A stretch of 13,589 bases of DNA from Gemmatimonadota bacterium (GCA_002712305.1 PATE01000008.1:2825-16413); one strand, 5' to 3'; counted from the stretch's first letter, positions 886 through 10,362 are shown. Notes: generated by a model not told the origin, from the letters alone. Program-made: numbers and translations.

Positions 886-3800
886 TTACTCGCGCTGCAT
901 CATCTGCCACGCCCGTCCTGGCGCCTCCACCCGGAAGGTCTCGACGTTCCCATTGTCCTGCAGCGTGACATAGGCAGTGCGCCCGTCCGGCCCCCCAAAG
1001 GCGATGTTGCTCGGCTGTGTGCCCGTCAGTTCGATCTCCAGCAACACCTCCCCTGCAGGTGACACCTTTGTCACCTTGGCCGAACCATGGCGCGTGATGT
1101 AGAGATTGCCCTCGACGTCGCAGCGCATGCCGTCCATGCCACCCTCTTCGAACTCTATAAGCAGCCGCTTGTTGCTGATCTGTCCAGCAGGCGACAGATC
1201 GAAGACCCACACCTTGCGCTGTATACTCTCGTTCACATAGAGACGCGTCTCGTCAGGGCTCAACTCCACGCCATTCGTCGTACCCATGTTCGATGCCAAT
1301 CGCTGCACCTCGCCCTGGGGGCTGATGCGCCAGAGCTGGCCGGTTCCTTCGCGCCAGTTTGGATCTGAAGCGTAGAGGACGTCGTCGCTGGCGATGGCCA
1401 GATCGTTCGGCTGATTCATCTCCGCCTCGTGGGCAAACACAGAGATCTCGCGTGTCTCCATGTCGACACGCAGCACATTGTGCCGCATGTAGTCGGCGAT
1501 CAGCATGTTGCCGGCACGATCGAAGCGAATGCCATTGCCGATGCTGCCCTGCGGCAGCTCGACGAACAGACTCGCCGTTCCATCGGCATCCGCCACACCG
1601 ATGGTCCCCTGCGTTTCGAAGTTGACCGCATAGAGGCGGCCTTCCGCATCGACGGCAGGCCCCTCAATGCCCTGCGGAAAGCCACCCGCCTCGGTGAGAA
1701 TCTTCGCCACATAGGGTTCGTCACCCTCTTGAGCCGGGCCCTCCGACCCACCCATGAACTCCTGCAGCACGTCCAGTGCCTGTGTCCGTCTGAGGAAGCT
1801 GGCCCAGAAGATGGGCGGCGAATTGAAGTTGTCATCCATCAGGCCCATATCGGCGCCGCGCTCCAGCAGTCGCCGGACAGCGGCGGCCTGGTCCGCATAG
1901 ATGGCCTTGTGCAGGGCACCCACACCTCCTCGTTCGGCCGAGAAGCTGTCAAAGAAACCCTGCGGCTGACTGTCGATGGCGGCCCCCTTGTCGAGGAGCC
2001 AGTCGATAGCCTCCACGTTCCCCGCATAGGCCGCATAGCTAAGACTCAGATCGAGCAGATGCTGGTCGGAGGGCTCGTCGGGCATCTTCGGTCGGAATTG
2101 GGTATTCGCAGAGGGCAACATCGAGCCATCTGCGTCGAAGAACGAAGCCAGCGCCGTCACGTCGCCCACGGCCGCTGTGAAGGGCAGGTCCACCTCGATC
2201 CCACCGGCGACCAGGATCCGAGCCATGTTGAAGTGATTCGCCCCAAGTCCTTCGAACCACCTTGGCTCACCGACCAGCGCATTCCACATACTCTCCGGTC
2301 CTGCGGTGGCTCCTGCGTCGAGAGCCATGCGGATGAGGTCGTCTGCTCCATCGAGCCAGAGCAACTGTGACGAGGTCATGACCGACTGCAGGACCCCCGT
2401 CGAGTCGGCCGTCAGCGCCGAGGCGTCGGCGCCATGGCTGTAGAGGATGCGAGCCAGTTCGGCCACATTCGACGGCAGCGGAGCCCGGTCGGAACCGGCC
2501 AGCACGTGCAGAAGGCGTGCTCCGCGAAGTTGGGGCAGCGGAAACAGCTCGTGATCGTATCCCGCGGCATTCACCACCCCCGGCGCCGCACTCAGCAGCG
2601 AGTCGAGTCCCGACACATCACCCGCGTCGATGAGGGCGACCGCTTCCTCGAAAGCAGGATGCTGTGCGGGATATCCTGCCCACGCTTCGGGCGGCAAATC
2701 ATCTCCGGCCCGGGGAACCCCCACGGCGACGATCTCCGCAGGCTGATCGTTTCCACCGATGGAGGCGGCGATATACTGACGGCCATCAGCCATGAACGAG
2801 AACAGACCACCATAGGTGTTGTCTGGAAGTGGCAGTTCGGCCACGTGGGCGCCCGTCTCCTTGTCGAGTGCGAAGAGACTGGCGTCGCGCTGCACAAAGT
2901 AGGGACCGCCCACGGGGTTGAAGCTACGTGGGTCCTCCAGGGTCACGAAGAGCAGATCCGGTGTTACGAGCGGAAAAGATCGCGTAGGCCAACCCAGCGT
3001 TTTCGGCAGATCCTCCACATCCGCCAGGGCCGGATGATTGACGGGACCCGTCCCCATGGGGCGCATCCACAGCTGTTCTCCCGTGGTCATGTCGATAGCC
3101 GTGAACCGTCCATAGGGCGGCGTGGTCAGCGGCAAGCCGTCGAGAAAACCGAAGAACTGTGCCCGCCCCCCGAAAGCAGAGAAAGCCTCTGCATCGTCGA
3201 CGGGGATCAGAAACGTGGCATCCGGTCGGGTCTTTGAGCCGATGAACAGCACACCCGTCGTGGGATCGACGGCCCCGCCGACCCAGTCGGCCCCACCCAG
3301 TTCGCCCGGCATCTGCACCGACCCTCCCAGAGAGGGCGGTGTGTAGAGCGGCCCCGTGCGTCGATCTCCCAACTCTTGCAGAGCCTGCTCACGAAGCTCG
3401 GGGGTGAAGTCGATGAGGTCGTCCACCGTGAAACCCTGTCGATCGTAGGGTGCCGGTCGCGTCGGATGCGGCTGCGTCGGCGACGTAACCTCCCCCTCGA
3501 CGTCGGAGGCGGGTGCGGGGCGCTCTTCGATCGGCCAGATCGGCTCACCCGTGATGCGATCGAAGACATAGGCGTAGGACTGCTTCGTTACCTGCACCAC
3601 GATCTTGCGGGGCTCGCCGTCGATGGTCACGTCGAGCAGGATCGGCGCCGCTGGTGGGTCGTAATTCCACAACGTGTGATGGATCAGCTGATAGTGCCAG
3701 ATATACTCCCCCGTGCGCGCATCGACGGCGACGAGACAATCCGAAAACAGATTCTCGCCGGGTCGTTCGCCGCCATAGCGGTCATGACTGACCGAACTAA

Positions 3801-4644
3801 CCGGCAGATACGCATACCCCAACTCGGGGTCGGCGCTAATCGTCCCCCACACATTCGCCGCACCAAAGTGCGACCACGAGGTTCCCTCCCATTGGTCCCA
3901 GCCGATCTCCCCCGGCTGCGGAATCGTATGGAATCGCCACAACTGCTCACCGGTGCTTACGTCGTAAGCCCGCACATCGCCCGGAGACACGTAGCGGAAG
4001 GGCGACTCCCCGTTGTGCCAATCAAGGATGATCGATCCCACGATCGCCACATCCCCCACGATTGTCGGGGGCGATGCCAGACCGAAGCGGTCTTTGATCA
4101 CCGAGGCGCGCAGGCCCGTCGTCAGATCCACACGACCATTCGCGCCAAAGGACGCGTCGGGCAGACCTGTCTTGGCGTCCAGCGAATAGAGTGTGTCGGA
4201 CCACGTACCAAACAGAATCCGCGCATTGCCCGCGTCATCGGACCAGTAGCCGACACCCCGATTGAGAAACTGACCCGTCGAGTTGTCGTGGCGGTCATTC
4301 GTGTCGAAACGCCACAGTTCCTCGCCCGACGTTGCATCGAGGGCGAGGGCAATCCCGAATGGGGTGAGGGTGTACATGACCCCGTCGATGACGAGGGGGG
4401 TTCCCTTGTAGTTGTCGATCTCGAAGTCGGGCTCATCTTCCACGATCTGCGCATCCGGCAATCGATAGCGCCAGAGGATGCGCAGACTGTCCACGTTGCC
4501 ACGATGAATCTGGTCGAAGGGCACATACCGCGTGCTGGCCGGATCTGACGCCCAATGACCCCAGTCGGCGGCGGTCTCGTTCAACGACACGAGAACGGTG
4601 ATCAGTGCAAGGGGCAGAAGGGTTGGGCGGAGACGTCGAGACAT
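886..4644 (-). CDS. Exported PQQ-dependent sugar dehydrogenase / ankyrin-like / SMP-30 gluconolactonase fusion
   Basis: The protein has 1252 residues. Residues 1-26 are a Sec signal peptide (basic MSRRLR, hydrophobic core, NETAA before DWGHW), so it acts outside the cytoplasm. Residues 27-645 match the PQQ dehydrogenase propeller of the glucose dehydrogenase type (PFDQIHRGNVDSL, PGDVRAYDVSTGEQLW, YDRQGFTVDDLIDFTPELR). K354 fits the PQQ-contacting Lys of membrane glucose dehydrogenase, but the catalytic Asp, 27 residues before it, is N327 (LWNYD). Residues 661-965 look like degenerate ankyrin repeats (AIDWLLDKGAAID, AVRRLLERGADM). Residues 980-1245 are an SMP-30/gluconolactonase propeller with all expected metal or substrate residues: E994 (EGP), N1080 (ND), N1124 (NG) and D1171 (DG). 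There is no CxxCH haem site and there are no extra membrane helices. AAGGAA before the ATG supports the start. Substrate and electron acceptor are unknown. Confidence 0.93.
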   Translation of the reverse strand: MSRRLRPTLLPLALITVLVSLNETAADWGHWASDPASTRYVPFDQIHRGNVDSLRILWRYRLPDAQIVEDEPDFEIDNYKGTPLVIDGVMYTLTPFGIALALDATSGEELWRFDTNDRHDNSTGQFLNRGVGYWSDDAGNARILFGTWSDTLYSLDAKTGLPDASFGANGRVDLTTGLRASVIKDRFGLASPPTIVGDVAIVGSIILDWHNGESPFRYVSPGDVRAYDVSTGEQLWRFHTIPQPGEIGWDQWEGTSWSHFGAANVWGTISADPELGYAYLPVSSVSHDRYGGERPGENLFSDCLVAVDARTGEYIWHYQLIHHTLWNYDPPAAPILLDVTIDGEPRKIVVQVTKQSYAYVFDRITGEPIWPIEERPAPASDVEGEVTSPTQPHPTRPAPYDRQGFTVDDLIDFTPELREQALQELGDRRTGPLYTPPSLGGSVQMPGELGGADWVGGAVDPTTGVLFIGSKTRPDATFLIPVDDAEAFSAFGGRAQFFGFLDGLPLTTPPYGRFTAIDMTTGEQLWMRPMGTGPVNHPALADVEDLPKTLGWPTRSFPLVTPDLLFVTLEDPRSFNPVGGPYFVQRDASLFALDKETGAHVAELPLPDNTYGGLFSFMADGRQYIAASIGGNDQPAEIVAVGVPRAGDDLPPEAWAGYPAQHPAFEEAVALIDAGDVSGLDSLLSAAPGVVNAAGYDHELFPLPQLRGARLLHVLAGSDRAPLPSNVAELARILYSHGADASALTADSTGVLQSVMTSSQLLWLDGADDLIRMALDAGATAGPESMWNALVGEPRWFEGLGANHFNMARILVAGGIEVDLPFTAAVGDVTALASFFDADGSMLPSANTQFRPKMPDEPSDQHLLDLSLSYAAYAGNVEAIDWLLDKGAAIDSQPQGFFDSFSAERGGVGALHKAIYADQAAAVRRLLERGADMGLMDDNFNSPPIFWASFLRRTQALDVLQEFMGGSEGPAQEGDEPYVAKILTEAGGFPQGIEGPAVDAEGRLYAVNFETQGTIGVADADGTASLFVELPQGSIGNGIRFDRAGNMLIADYMRHNVLRVDMETREISVFAHEAEMNQPNDLAIASDDVLYASDPNWREGTGQLWRISPQGEVQRLASNMGTTNGVELSPDETRLYVNESIQRKVWVFDLSPAGQISNKRLLIEFEEGGMDGMRCDVEGNLYITRHGSAKVTKVSPAGEVLLEIELTGTQPSNIAFGGPDGRTAYVTLQDNGNVETFRVEAPGRAWQMMQRE

Positions 4645-7200: not shown

Positions 7201-8056
7201 ATGAAACTCGAGAGCATCAACTGGAAGAAGGTGACCGCCTCTATGGCGGCCTTCATGGTGCTCCCCGTCTGCCTGGCCACGATCGCATGGATCCTTGAGT
7301 CCGAGACTCGGTTCCTCAGCCATCGAAGGTGACCTTCGTCCCGACCCGAGCATCGCTCTCGGCGCCCACGAGGTGACGGTCGTGGAAATGGCGTCGGCCT
7401 ACGGCACCCTGGCCGCATCGGGCATCCGTGTCGAGCCCACCCTCGTCGACCGAATCACCAACACGGAAAACCGGACGCTCTTCGACCACCGGCCTTCGGT
7501 TCGCCAGGTGGTCTCGCCCACAAAGGCCTTCGAAGTGGTGCAGATCATGCGACAGGTCGTGAACCGCGGTGCCGGGCGTCGCGTCCGTGCCATGGGCTTC
7601 GATCGTCCTGTAGCGGGGAAGACGGGCACGACGAATGACAACACCGATGCCTGGTTCTCAGGCTTCACACCCGAACTGGTCGCCAGCGTATGGGTTGGAT
7701 TTGATGATCGCAAGCGACACCGGCTAGTCGATCAGAACGGTGTGCAGATCACCGGCTCAAGCGGCGCCGCACCGATCTGGACCACCTTCATGCATCAGGC
7801 CGTCGCCGAGGCGCCACCGGCTGAATTCAGCATGCCCGCAGGTATGAGTCAGCAGGAGATTGAGCCCACGACGGGGCTGGCCGCTCGGATTCTACCCGAC
7901 TCCCTCAACCTGACCCATCGTCCCGTGAGGTTGGCACTCGTCGATACGGTGCGTGCAAACACCTGGGAGGACGTACGACGATTCGAAGAGCAGAGCGGCC
8001 GTCCCCTCATCGACAGTGTGCTTGAGCGTGCTCGCCCTGTCTTGTTGACTCCCTGA
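7201..8056 (+). pseudogene. Internally deleted class A penicillin-binding protein
   Basis: The 3' part (frame open from 7295) is the C-terminus of a class A PBP transpeptidase: PDPSIALGAHEVTVVEMASAY, then the active-site KTGTT (K109 counted from 7295) followed by AWFSGFTPELVASVWVGFD. The glycosyltransferase domain and the SxxK and SxN motifs are absent. The 5' part, ATG at 7201, encodes MKLESINWKKVTASMAAFM and a membrane helix, then stops at 7330-7332 in a different frame. It could be the PBP's own N-terminal anchor. Full-length relatives are about 700-800 residues, so roughly 450-500 codons are missing and the two ends are out of frame. The fragment cannot be a working transpeptidase. The anchor's link to the PBP is inferred from position; it could be a separate 43-residue membrane peptide. 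Confidence 0.72.
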
Positions 8057-8591: not shown

Positions 8592-8688
8592 CGTCTTTCT
8601 CTCCGGTTGAATCGTAGCGACACATTCAATAACGTCTCCAAACTTATGGTTGTGCGTTCACTTCACAAGAAGACGCCTTCCTATGGGC

Positions 8689-9489
8689 ATGACAGAAGAA
8701 GAGAAATTTCGCTTTGATCTGACCGGTTACCTCATTCGACCGGCGATCCTGACACCTGAGCAGATCGCTGACATCGTCGAGCAGATCGACCGGATCAAGC
8801 ACGATCCAGATTCACTTCCGCCCGCAGAGCGAAACGTACCGGGCGGTGCGTCGAGTCTCCTCATCGACCATCCCAAGGTAACTGAGGTACTTCACGAGAT
8901 CATCGGTCCCAATGTTCGTCTCGAAGGCACCTTCTGTGTCTGGCGGCAGAAAGGTGAATGGGCCGGTGACCTGCACGGCGGAGGGCCGCAGCAGATCGAT
9001 CCCATCTTCGGCTACCGATGCGCCCACGGACGGATTCATGCGGGCATGGTGCGTGTTGTGTTTGAGTTGACGGATGTCTCCAAGCAGGACGGGGCGACCC
9101 ACTTCATCCCCGGCAGTCACAAGGCCAACTTCCCCATGCACCCCGACCATATGTCGCTCGAACCAGGGGAACGGTCGGAGTTTCTGACCTCGTACGAATG
9201 TCCGGCGGGCAGCGCCATCTTCTTCACCGAGAATCTGTGCCACGCCGGACCTCATTGGCAGCGAGATACACCGAGAGTCGCCGTGCTCAACGCCTATACC
9301 CATCTGGCGACCCACTGGCACCGACCCACCATCGCAGCTGAAATCATGGCCGGGCTGGCACGCGAGAAACAGGCCTGGTTTCGTGAACCATGGATCGCAG
9401 ACTTCCGCACGTCGCCGGCGACGCACAACTCTATGGAACGTTTCCTCGACAACGAAGAACCCACAGTGCGGCTGGACCACAAGCCGTAG
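8689..9489 (+). CDS. PhyH-family (phytanoyl-CoA dioxygenase-like) protein with an H-G-G motif
   Basis: The protein has 266 residues with the PhyH double-stranded beta-helix fold. Features are FDLTGYLIRPAILTPEQI at the N-terminus, FELTDVSKQDGATHFIPGSHKANF in the core, the distal His H185 (NLCHAGPHW) and R196, the likely 2-oxoglutarate-binding Arg. Where Fe(II)/2-oxoglutarate oxygenases have HxD, this protein reads DLHGGGP (H96, G97, G98). It may therefore lack the carboxylate iron ligand, as Fe/2OG halogenases do. I take the ATG at 8689 (MTEEEKFRF) as start; the ATG two codons earlier at 8683 is equally possible, and no strong Shine-Dalgarno is seen for either. Substrate is unknown. Proteins of this kind are numerous in planctomycete-like and latescibacterial genomes. 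Confidence 0.87.
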   Translation: MTEEEKFRFDLTGYLIRPAILTPEQIADIVEQIDRIKHDPDSLPPAERNVPGGASSLLIDHPKVTEVLHEIIGPNVRLEGTFCVWRQKGEWAGDLHGGGPQQIDPIFGYRCAHGRIHAGMVRVVFELTDVSKQDGATHFIPGSHKANFPMHPDHMSLEPGERSEFLTSYECPAGSAIFFTENLCHAGPHWQRDTPRVAVLNAYTHLATHWHRPTIAAEIMAGLAREKQAWFREPWIADFRTSPATHNSMERFLDNEEPTVRLDHKP

Positions 9490-9492
9490 GAA

Positions 9493-10362
9493 TCAGGCGT
9501 AGTACATCTCTCCGCCGAAGGACAGGGGTTCGACAGGTCGCGGATAGCGAATCTGTTGCGGCGTCTCTTCCACGGCAGCGGCCCACGCATCACGCCATGT
9601 TTCATAGGTCGTCTCCTGCCCCGGGTCGTGGCGACTGCGCGCGACCAGACTCGGCCATTCGGGCCGCGGCGACGGTTCCCCCGTCTTCTGATATCGCAGA
9701 TCCATACTCCAACGCACGGCGTCGGTGTTGTTGGGGCCTGAACCGTGTGGGGTCAGCTTGTGCATGATCAGCACATCGCCCTTCTCCATCGGTAGGAGCA
9801 CTTTCTCGGTCTGCGGCAGATCCTTGCTATAGGTCCAGTAGACGATCTCCTGTCGATGGACCCCGGGTTGCACCTGCAAACAACCGTTTTCTGCCGTTGC
9901 CTTTCCAAGGGGCAGCCAGACGGTGACCTGCAGAATGTCTTTCGCCTCCTGGGTGGTGAAGACCGCATCCTGGTGAAAGTGAACGTCTGTCCGCGGCATC
10001 TTCGGTCGCACATGCGACACCGGATTCCATGTGATTTCCGGGCCGATGAAGGGTTCGATCAGATCCACCAGATTCTGGTTGCGAAGAAACTCGAAGGTGC
10101 CACGCCGGCGCGTGAAACCGATGTCCGGGCAACCGTCCACCTCGTCGCACTGGTCTGCCAGGCGCGCCAACCGATGGTGGAAGTCTTCGTCTTCGCACAG
10201 ATCCTTGATTTTCCCCGCTTGATGCAGGTCGCGGGCCATCTCGTCGACGATGGCGACGTGGTCCTGAATCAAGGGTTCGAGATCCTCGTCGGTCAGCGCT
10301 TTCGGGAAGACGACGTACCCGTGCTCTTTGTAGAACTCAAGGTCCTCAGCGCGGACCGTCAT
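9493..10362 (-). CDS. PhyH-family (phytanoyl-CoA dioxygenase-like) oxygenase with a canonical iron site
   Basis: The protein has 289 residues: a PhyH N-terminus (EFYKEHGYVVFPKALTDEDL), the iron motif HFHQD (H130, D132), the core VWLPLGKATAENGCLQVQPG with PGVH, the distal His H206 (TPHGSGPNNT) and an Arg after it (R217 or R223) for 2-oxoglutarate. All ligands expected of an Fe(II)/2-oxoglutarate hydroxylase are present. The ATG has AGGAG 6 bases upstream. The gene converges on the other PhyH gene with only 3 bases between stop codons. It is divergent from the operon at 10462. The substrate cannot be predicted. Confidence 0.9.
   Translation of the reverse strand: MTVRAEDLEFYKEHGYVVFPKALTDEDLEPLIQDHVAIVDEMARDLHQAGKIKDLCEDEDFHHRLARLADQCDEVDGCPDIGFTRRRGTFEFLRNQNLVDLIEPFIGPEITWNPVSHVRPKMPRTDVHFHQDAVFTTQEAKDILQVTVWLPLGKATAENGCLQVQPGVHRQEIVYWTYSKDLPQTEKVLLPMEKGDVLIMHKLTPHGSGPNNTDAVRWSMDLRYQKTGEPSPRPEWPSLVARSRHDPGQETTYETWRDAWAAAVEETPQQIRYPRPVEPLSFGGEMYYA

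Follow-up and report, generated by a model that had tools for sequence, protein, structure and literature searches.

The stretch of DNA analysed here, referred to as the window, comprises 13,589 nucleotides from a Gemmatimonadota bacterium (GCA_002712305.1). It contains a single uninterrupted open reading frame (4644..886, minus strand, ATG start) coding for a protein of 1252 amino acids, in which a dehydrogenase-type propeller of the pyrroloquinoline quinone (PQQ) family is fused via ankyrin repeats (Ank) to a propeller of the SGL family (SMP-30/gluconolactonase/LRE). An earlier interpretation made from the DNA alone, in the following called the sequence-only reading, had proposed at positions 886-4644 an exported single chain with both enzyme domains in an unusual three-part layout, and had linked it to direct sugar oxidation.

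Layout and conservation of the fused gene

The open reading frame itself agrees with the proposed locus; its strand, left unstated there, is the minus strand. The parts are organized as follows:

886..4644, minus strand: whole open reading frame with signal-like start, PQQ, ankyrin and SGL parts, 1252 amino acids (Pfam; full-length homologue in a second species, G001/L028, 86%)
4567..4644, minus strand: signal-peptide-like start MSRRLRPTLLPLALITVLVSLNETAA, residues 1-26 (sequence and hydropathy)
2725..4563, minus strand: PQQ-dehydrogenase-type eight-bladed propeller domain, residues 28-640 (PF01011 at 28-625, E-value 9.1e-173)
1747..2724, minus strand: ankyrin-repeat region, residues 641-966 (Pfam at 868-936; homology to unfused PQQ-Ank proteins over the full length)
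892..1746, minus strand: SGL six-bladed propeller domain, residues 967-1251 (PF08450 at 994-1227, E-value 8.7e-45)

The PF01011 match spans the complete profile (positions 1-595 of 595) with 576.6 bits against a Pfam cut-off of 26.7, and PF08450 reaches 153.7 bits against 26.3. Together with the signal-like start, both matches bear out an exported chain that carries the two domain types. Three ankyrin families score above their Pfam gathering cut-offs within residues 868-936 (PF13637, 31.8 against 22.7 bits; PF12796, 27.7 against 27.3; PF00023, 23.8 against 21.1). Residues 641-966 align end to end with the C-terminal part of unfused PQQ-Ank relatives, and because the whole region aligns in this way it may be regarded as one ankyrin domain and more than a linker. 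The three-part layout thus holds, but the ankyrin stretch is longer (about 641-966, ~320 amino acids) than had been implied. A hydropathy and sequence scan of the 1252 amino acids gave no further transmembrane-like segment beyond residues 1-26 and no haem-c motif.

The genome to which the window belongs (G000; 4.77 Mb in 146 contigs, 90.9% complete) carries the fused gene in a single copy. Within the genus, another species (G001; Gemmatimonadetes bacterium SI074_bin69, JABJJN010000014.1) encodes the same three-part protein on a 310-kb contig, with 86% identity over residues 1-1252 and zero gaps, which argues that the fusion is no product of chance or of assembly. A chimera or frameshift artefact of a metagenome-assembled genome, to which the fragmentation of the first genome might point, has a negligible probability given the identical junction and the lack of any indel in the second gene. 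The ratio of nonsynonymous to synonymous substitution rates (dN/dS) between both genes is 0.060 for the PQQ, 0.077 for the ankyrin and 0.078 for the SGL part. By this estimate the gene is under strong purifying selection in each part, and therefore all three domains are maintained.

We looked for the architecture in 64 phylum genomes, in a collection of one genome per bacterial or archaeal species (which reaches close relatives only) and in plasmids. The three-part protein occurs in two of the 64 phylum genomes, both of the same genus, and no plasmid record covered 80% of the fused query. The PQQ-Ank-SGL architecture is rare, as the sequence-only reading had supposed; its uniqueness is not proven. 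In the searchable literature we found no publication on a single-chain fusion of PQQ and SGL domains, nor on PQQ-ankyrin proteins.

Active-site residues of the two propellers

To compare both halves with known enzymes the following positions were considered:

1663..1665, minus strand: Glu994, SGL metal-site residue (structure-based alignment and 28 relatives)
1405..1407, minus strand: Asn1080, SGL active-site residue (structure-based alignment and 28 relatives)
1273..1275, minus strand: Asn1124, SGL metal-site residue (structure-based alignment and 28 relatives)
1132..1134, minus strand: Asp1171, SGL metal-site/catalytic residue (structure-based alignment and 28 relatives)
3664..3666, minus strand: Asn327, codon AAT, at the position of the catalytic Asp466 of Gcd (alignment to Gcd, homologues and PDB matches)
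3583..3585, minus strand: Lys354, retained equivalent of Gcd Lys493 (alignment to Gcd)

In the SGL half, E994, N1080, N1124 and D1171 align with the DFPase/SMP-30 set, so that the four key residues claimed before are indeed present. The glutamate occurs in 27 of 28 related SGL sequences, and the two asparagines and the aspartate in all 28. An NHL-like propeller without metal was also considered, and is ruled out by the intact Glu/Asn/Asn/Asp set. PDB matches of this half are a beta-propeller lactonase (7ris) and a gluconolactonase (8djf). While the four metal and active-site residues are common to DFPase, regucalcin and XC5397-like lactonases, the SGL domain here is the C-terminal one of three parts in a secreted chain. 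Family membership leaves the substrate unfixed, since the SGL domain fused to a superoxide dismutase (SOD) in Deinococcus radiodurans hardly accelerates the hydrolysis of gluconolactone and hydrolyses 2-coumaranone.(PMC12362111) Judged by its residues, the SGL half is the better-supported enzyme of the two.

For the PQQ half we used the numbering of Escherichia coli Gcd (27.6% identity to the fused protein) as reference, and the general-base column was fixed at the W-D position by Gcd 466 and the numbering of 1kb0. The protein resembles Gcd and the family TIGR03074 across the entire propeller domain, with retained equivalents of Trp404 (Trp266, PQQ-stacking), Lys493 (Lys354), Asp354 (Asp208), Asp468 (Asp329) and Asp730 (Asp587). 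It differs in that Asp466, which is taken as the general base, is replaced by Asn327, Asn607 by Gly469, and His262 is not retained; it further has no membrane anchor, and possesses the additional Ank and SGL parts. Measured against a standard PQQ dehydrogenase, the PQQ contacts Trp404 and Lys493 are thus in place, but the general-base aspartate is not. The column is Asp in Gcd, in five Alphaproteobacterial homologues and in the five best PDB homologues, among which the WDYD motif of XoxF (6dam) aligns to WNYD of the fused protein. Accordingly, the D-Y-D motif of lanthanide-type (XoxF-like) enzymes reads N-Y-D here, and the family TIGR03075 reaches 202 bits against 480.

The second fused protein has the same Asn, and so have the three closest unfused proteins of PQQ-Ank type (G001, G005, G012); its common occurrence in the latter indicates that Asn327 predates the fusion. 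Outgroups of the PQQ tree and most other PQQ-Ank proteins have Asp. One separate pair of PQQ proteins (L021 of G016 and L023 of G015) again shows Asn. All seven Asn proteins also carry E, R or A in place of the usually conserved Asp in the upstream GDN motif, which nearly all Asp proteins retain.

The Gcd variant D466N was reportedly described by Elias et al. in 2000 in J Biol Chem as having very low activity with PQQ affinity retained; a search of the accessible literature for D466 mutants of Gcd found no report. The near-inactivity of this variant and the presence of Asn327 at the position of the general base put the dehydrogenase activity in doubt, and oxidation by the PQQ half is most likely weak, or proceeds by a changed mechanism.

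Origin of the fusion and supply of PQQ

Both building blocks of the protein are available in the family. Unfused PQQ-Ank proteins (about 960-1030 amino acids, without an SGL domain) are frequent, and are 45-61% identical to the fused protein; the nearest three share its Asn, and most others have the catalytic Asp. Stand-alone SGL proteins of ~300 amino acids (58-67% identity) occur in most family genomes, with two copies in the own genome. In the PQQ tree the fused pair clusters with the unfused proteins of G001, G005 and G012 (support 100/100), and in the SGL tree with exported SGL proteins of G005 and G009 (97/98). As both kinds of separate protein are common, the fusion appears to be recent and to have united two genes that already coded for exported proteins: in the simplest reading, such a PQQ-Ank gene was joined 5' of such an SGL gene in the ancestor of the genus or just before it. 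That the two genes lay side by side in relatives ahead of the fusion is unsupported, because in the sister genus (g5) they are separate genes that lie on different contigs and show no linkage. In two other loci (L038, G020:C54; L040, G024:C1) three PQQ-Ank paralogues are arranged in tandem.

Separate SGL genes of the family lie in a conserved neighbourhood of RadC, a bifunctional nuclease/UVR protein, a signal-less SGL protein and an exported Ni-SOD, which was observed in several genera (L033, L034, L035, L036) and does not adjoin PQQ genes. This neighbourhood recalls the SOD-SGL fusion of Deinococcus. A different arrangement is given by plasmid pSRL1 of Sphingobium indicum B90A (L075): a stretch of about 8 kb encodes two PQQ dehydrogenases, a pair of cytochromes c and an SGL protein, and adjoins alcohol and semialdehyde dehydrogenase genes. 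In Deinococcus, the gene of a PQQ sugar dehydrogenase overlaps with, and shares an operon with, the SOD-SGL gene.(PMC12362111)

With regard to the cofactor, PqqC was detected in none of the 64 phylum genomes and PqqE in none of them above its curated score; with no known-positive control genome for either search, the absence of both is likely, not proven. The own genome encodes a full-length homologue of the importer PqqU of E. coli with Phe99, Lys274, Arg304 and Arg365, which agrees with the signature Y/F/W99, R304, R365 given by Munder et al.(PMC12124388) Seven relatives also have such an importer with F99/K274/R304/R365, and none of the other TonB receptors matched has both R304 and R365. 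Producers of PqqU without PQQ synthesis are known in Latescibacterota.(PMC12124388) In the second species the PqqU-type gene (G001:C29; L111:5070-7541) is divergent to an adjoining PQQ-Ank gene. In the own genome (G000:C108:22797-24860; L110:6648-8876) it adjoins the remnant of a PQQ-Ank gene, from which the PQQ domain is deleted in frame, leaving the signal, ~50 amino acids and ankyrin repeats. An encoded importer along with undetected synthesis genes makes it plausible that PQQ is scavenged, probably via the PqqU-type protein. No other PF01011 protein is encoded in the own genome; the idea that the fused protein is the sole possible user of PQQ was nevertheless rejected, as GSDH-type proteins are present there as well.

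Potential function of the fused protein

We favour, with moderate confidence, the explanation that a lineage-specific PQQ-Ank/SGL fusion has attached an SGL hydrolase to a PQQ-binding domain that oxidizes weakly or in an altered way. The fused protein would be secreted to the periplasm or outside; PQQ would be taken up by PqqU and bound by the first propeller. The ankyrin arm may position the SGL propeller beside the PQQ propeller. The SGL site (Glu994, Asn1080, Asn1124, Asp1171) would bind a divalent metal, probably Ca2+, and hydrolyse a lactone or an ester. The PQQ half, which has Trp266, Asp208, Lys354 and Asp329 but Asn327, would oxidize an alcohol or lactol weakly or by a changed mechanism. 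Architecture, conservation, residues, ancestry, purifying selection and the importer gene are read from sequence; the metal, PQQ binding, both activities and their coupling are what we infer. A predicted model of residues 53-1252, calculated from an alignment of two sequences, had a mean pLDDT (predicted local distance difference test) of 33.7 and a pTM (predicted template modelling score) of 0.28. Scans of viral contigs for further alignment rows yielded one distant PQQ relative and no SGL sequence.

Several points weigh against this explanation. The clade that conserves the Asn is subject to strong purifying selection and the remaining PQQ pocket is intact, which suggests that the PQQ domain does something. 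Asp329, invariant in our set, could serve as an alternative base, and a genuine PQQ chemistry is also favoured by the importer and by the conservation of the pocket. The presumed disabling effect of the Asn is drawn from mutants of E. coli Gcd. Conversely, the fused SGL domain could have lost its activity in ways that are invisible in the four key residues.

An unlikely alternative, which overlaps with the favoured explanation, is that the joining concerns location only, i.e. the SGL hydrolase is displayed in secreted form on an ankyrin/propeller scaffold and the parts have no common pathway. The lactonase of the Deinococcus SOD-SGL protein is independent of its SOD domain, and stress resistance was not noticeably changed by deletion,(PMC12362111) which would fit such a role, as would the unlinked genes of the sister genus and the other SGL copies of the relatives that adjoin Ni-SOD instead of PQQ genes. 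However, both parts are still joined and constrained in two species, and both enzyme types cluster in other bacteria.

The latter observation, made independently in Sphingobium pSRL1 and Deinococcus, agrees better with a two-step enzyme for a non-sugar substrate, an alternative we regard as slightly less probable still. Here Asp329 or a hydroxide bound to the metal, possibly a lanthanide, would act as the base when the PQQ half oxidizes a lactol or alcohol, and the SGL half would open the lactone. The low dN/dS across the PQQ domain is in line with this, and so is the position of Asp329 at +2, where the lanthanide-dependent XoxF also has Asp (6dam; WDYD versus WNYD). But an enzyme with the second acid alone departs from the normal arrangement, as Gcd and the other homologues possess both. 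A bolder version, a secreted bifunctional quinoprotein-lactonase that runs on scavenged PQQ without the usual Asp base, perhaps with another metal or base, and passes the lactone on via the ankyrin arm, seems doubtful to us.

The proposal of the sequence-only reading, in which an active aldose dehydrogenase and an active gluconolactonase share a single chain that converts a sugar to its lactone and opens it with channelling, we consider improbable. The domain families suit both steps, the SGL site is intact and a PQQ importer is encoded; to this extent the proposal stands. The best NCBIfam match is the glucose/quinate/shikimate family TIGR03074, yet its 354.2 bits remain below the curated cut-off of 832.65, and the N-terminal membrane domain of this type is absent from the fused protein, which has a signal-like start only. 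Gene neighbours in the window are a CAAX protease, PhyH dioxygenases and a TIM-barrel protein, and no sugar-pathway genes occur among them. The SGL domain of Deinococcus is, moreover, inefficient on gluconolactone.(PMC12362111) With the general base missing and no indication of a sugar substrate, there is at best partial support for direct sugar oxidation.

That a dehydrogenase can be fused to the lactonase acting next in its pathway is well known from the G6PD-6PGL proteins (Plasmodium, Giardia/Trichomonas, metazoan H6PD), which arose several times and lend the aldose proposal a precedent.(PMC3148214) They differ in their unrelated folds, NADP dependence and phosphorylated sugar substrate, and are not secreted bacterial proteins.(PMC3148214) DrSOD of D. 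radiodurans (Cu/Zn-SOD and SGL) is likewise comparable as an SGL lactonase C-terminal to an unrelated redox enzyme, in an operon with a PQQ sugar dehydrogenase; its partner is a SOD and no quinoprotein, it has no ankyrin part, and its SGL domain is active on 2-coumaranone but inefficient on gluconolactone.(PMC12362111)

Elsewhere in the window, positions 7295-8056 match a penicillin-binding transpeptidase over profile positions 157-267 of 299 only, possibly a gene fragment, and the two PhyH-type dioxygenase genes (8650-9489 and 9493-10362) face each other.

The PQQ and SGL families are old and common, and their union in one exported chain was seen in one genus only. If both sites work, the protein would be a natural single-chain alcohol or aldose oxidase and lactonase in a cofactor scavenger and could provide a test case for the channelling of lactones; it would then be the first single-chain PQQ oxidoreductase and lactonase. 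If, on the other hand, the Asn disables oxidation, the clade would represent conserved pseudo- or neo-quinoproteins that retain the PQQ pocket, and would thereby show a reuse of the fold.

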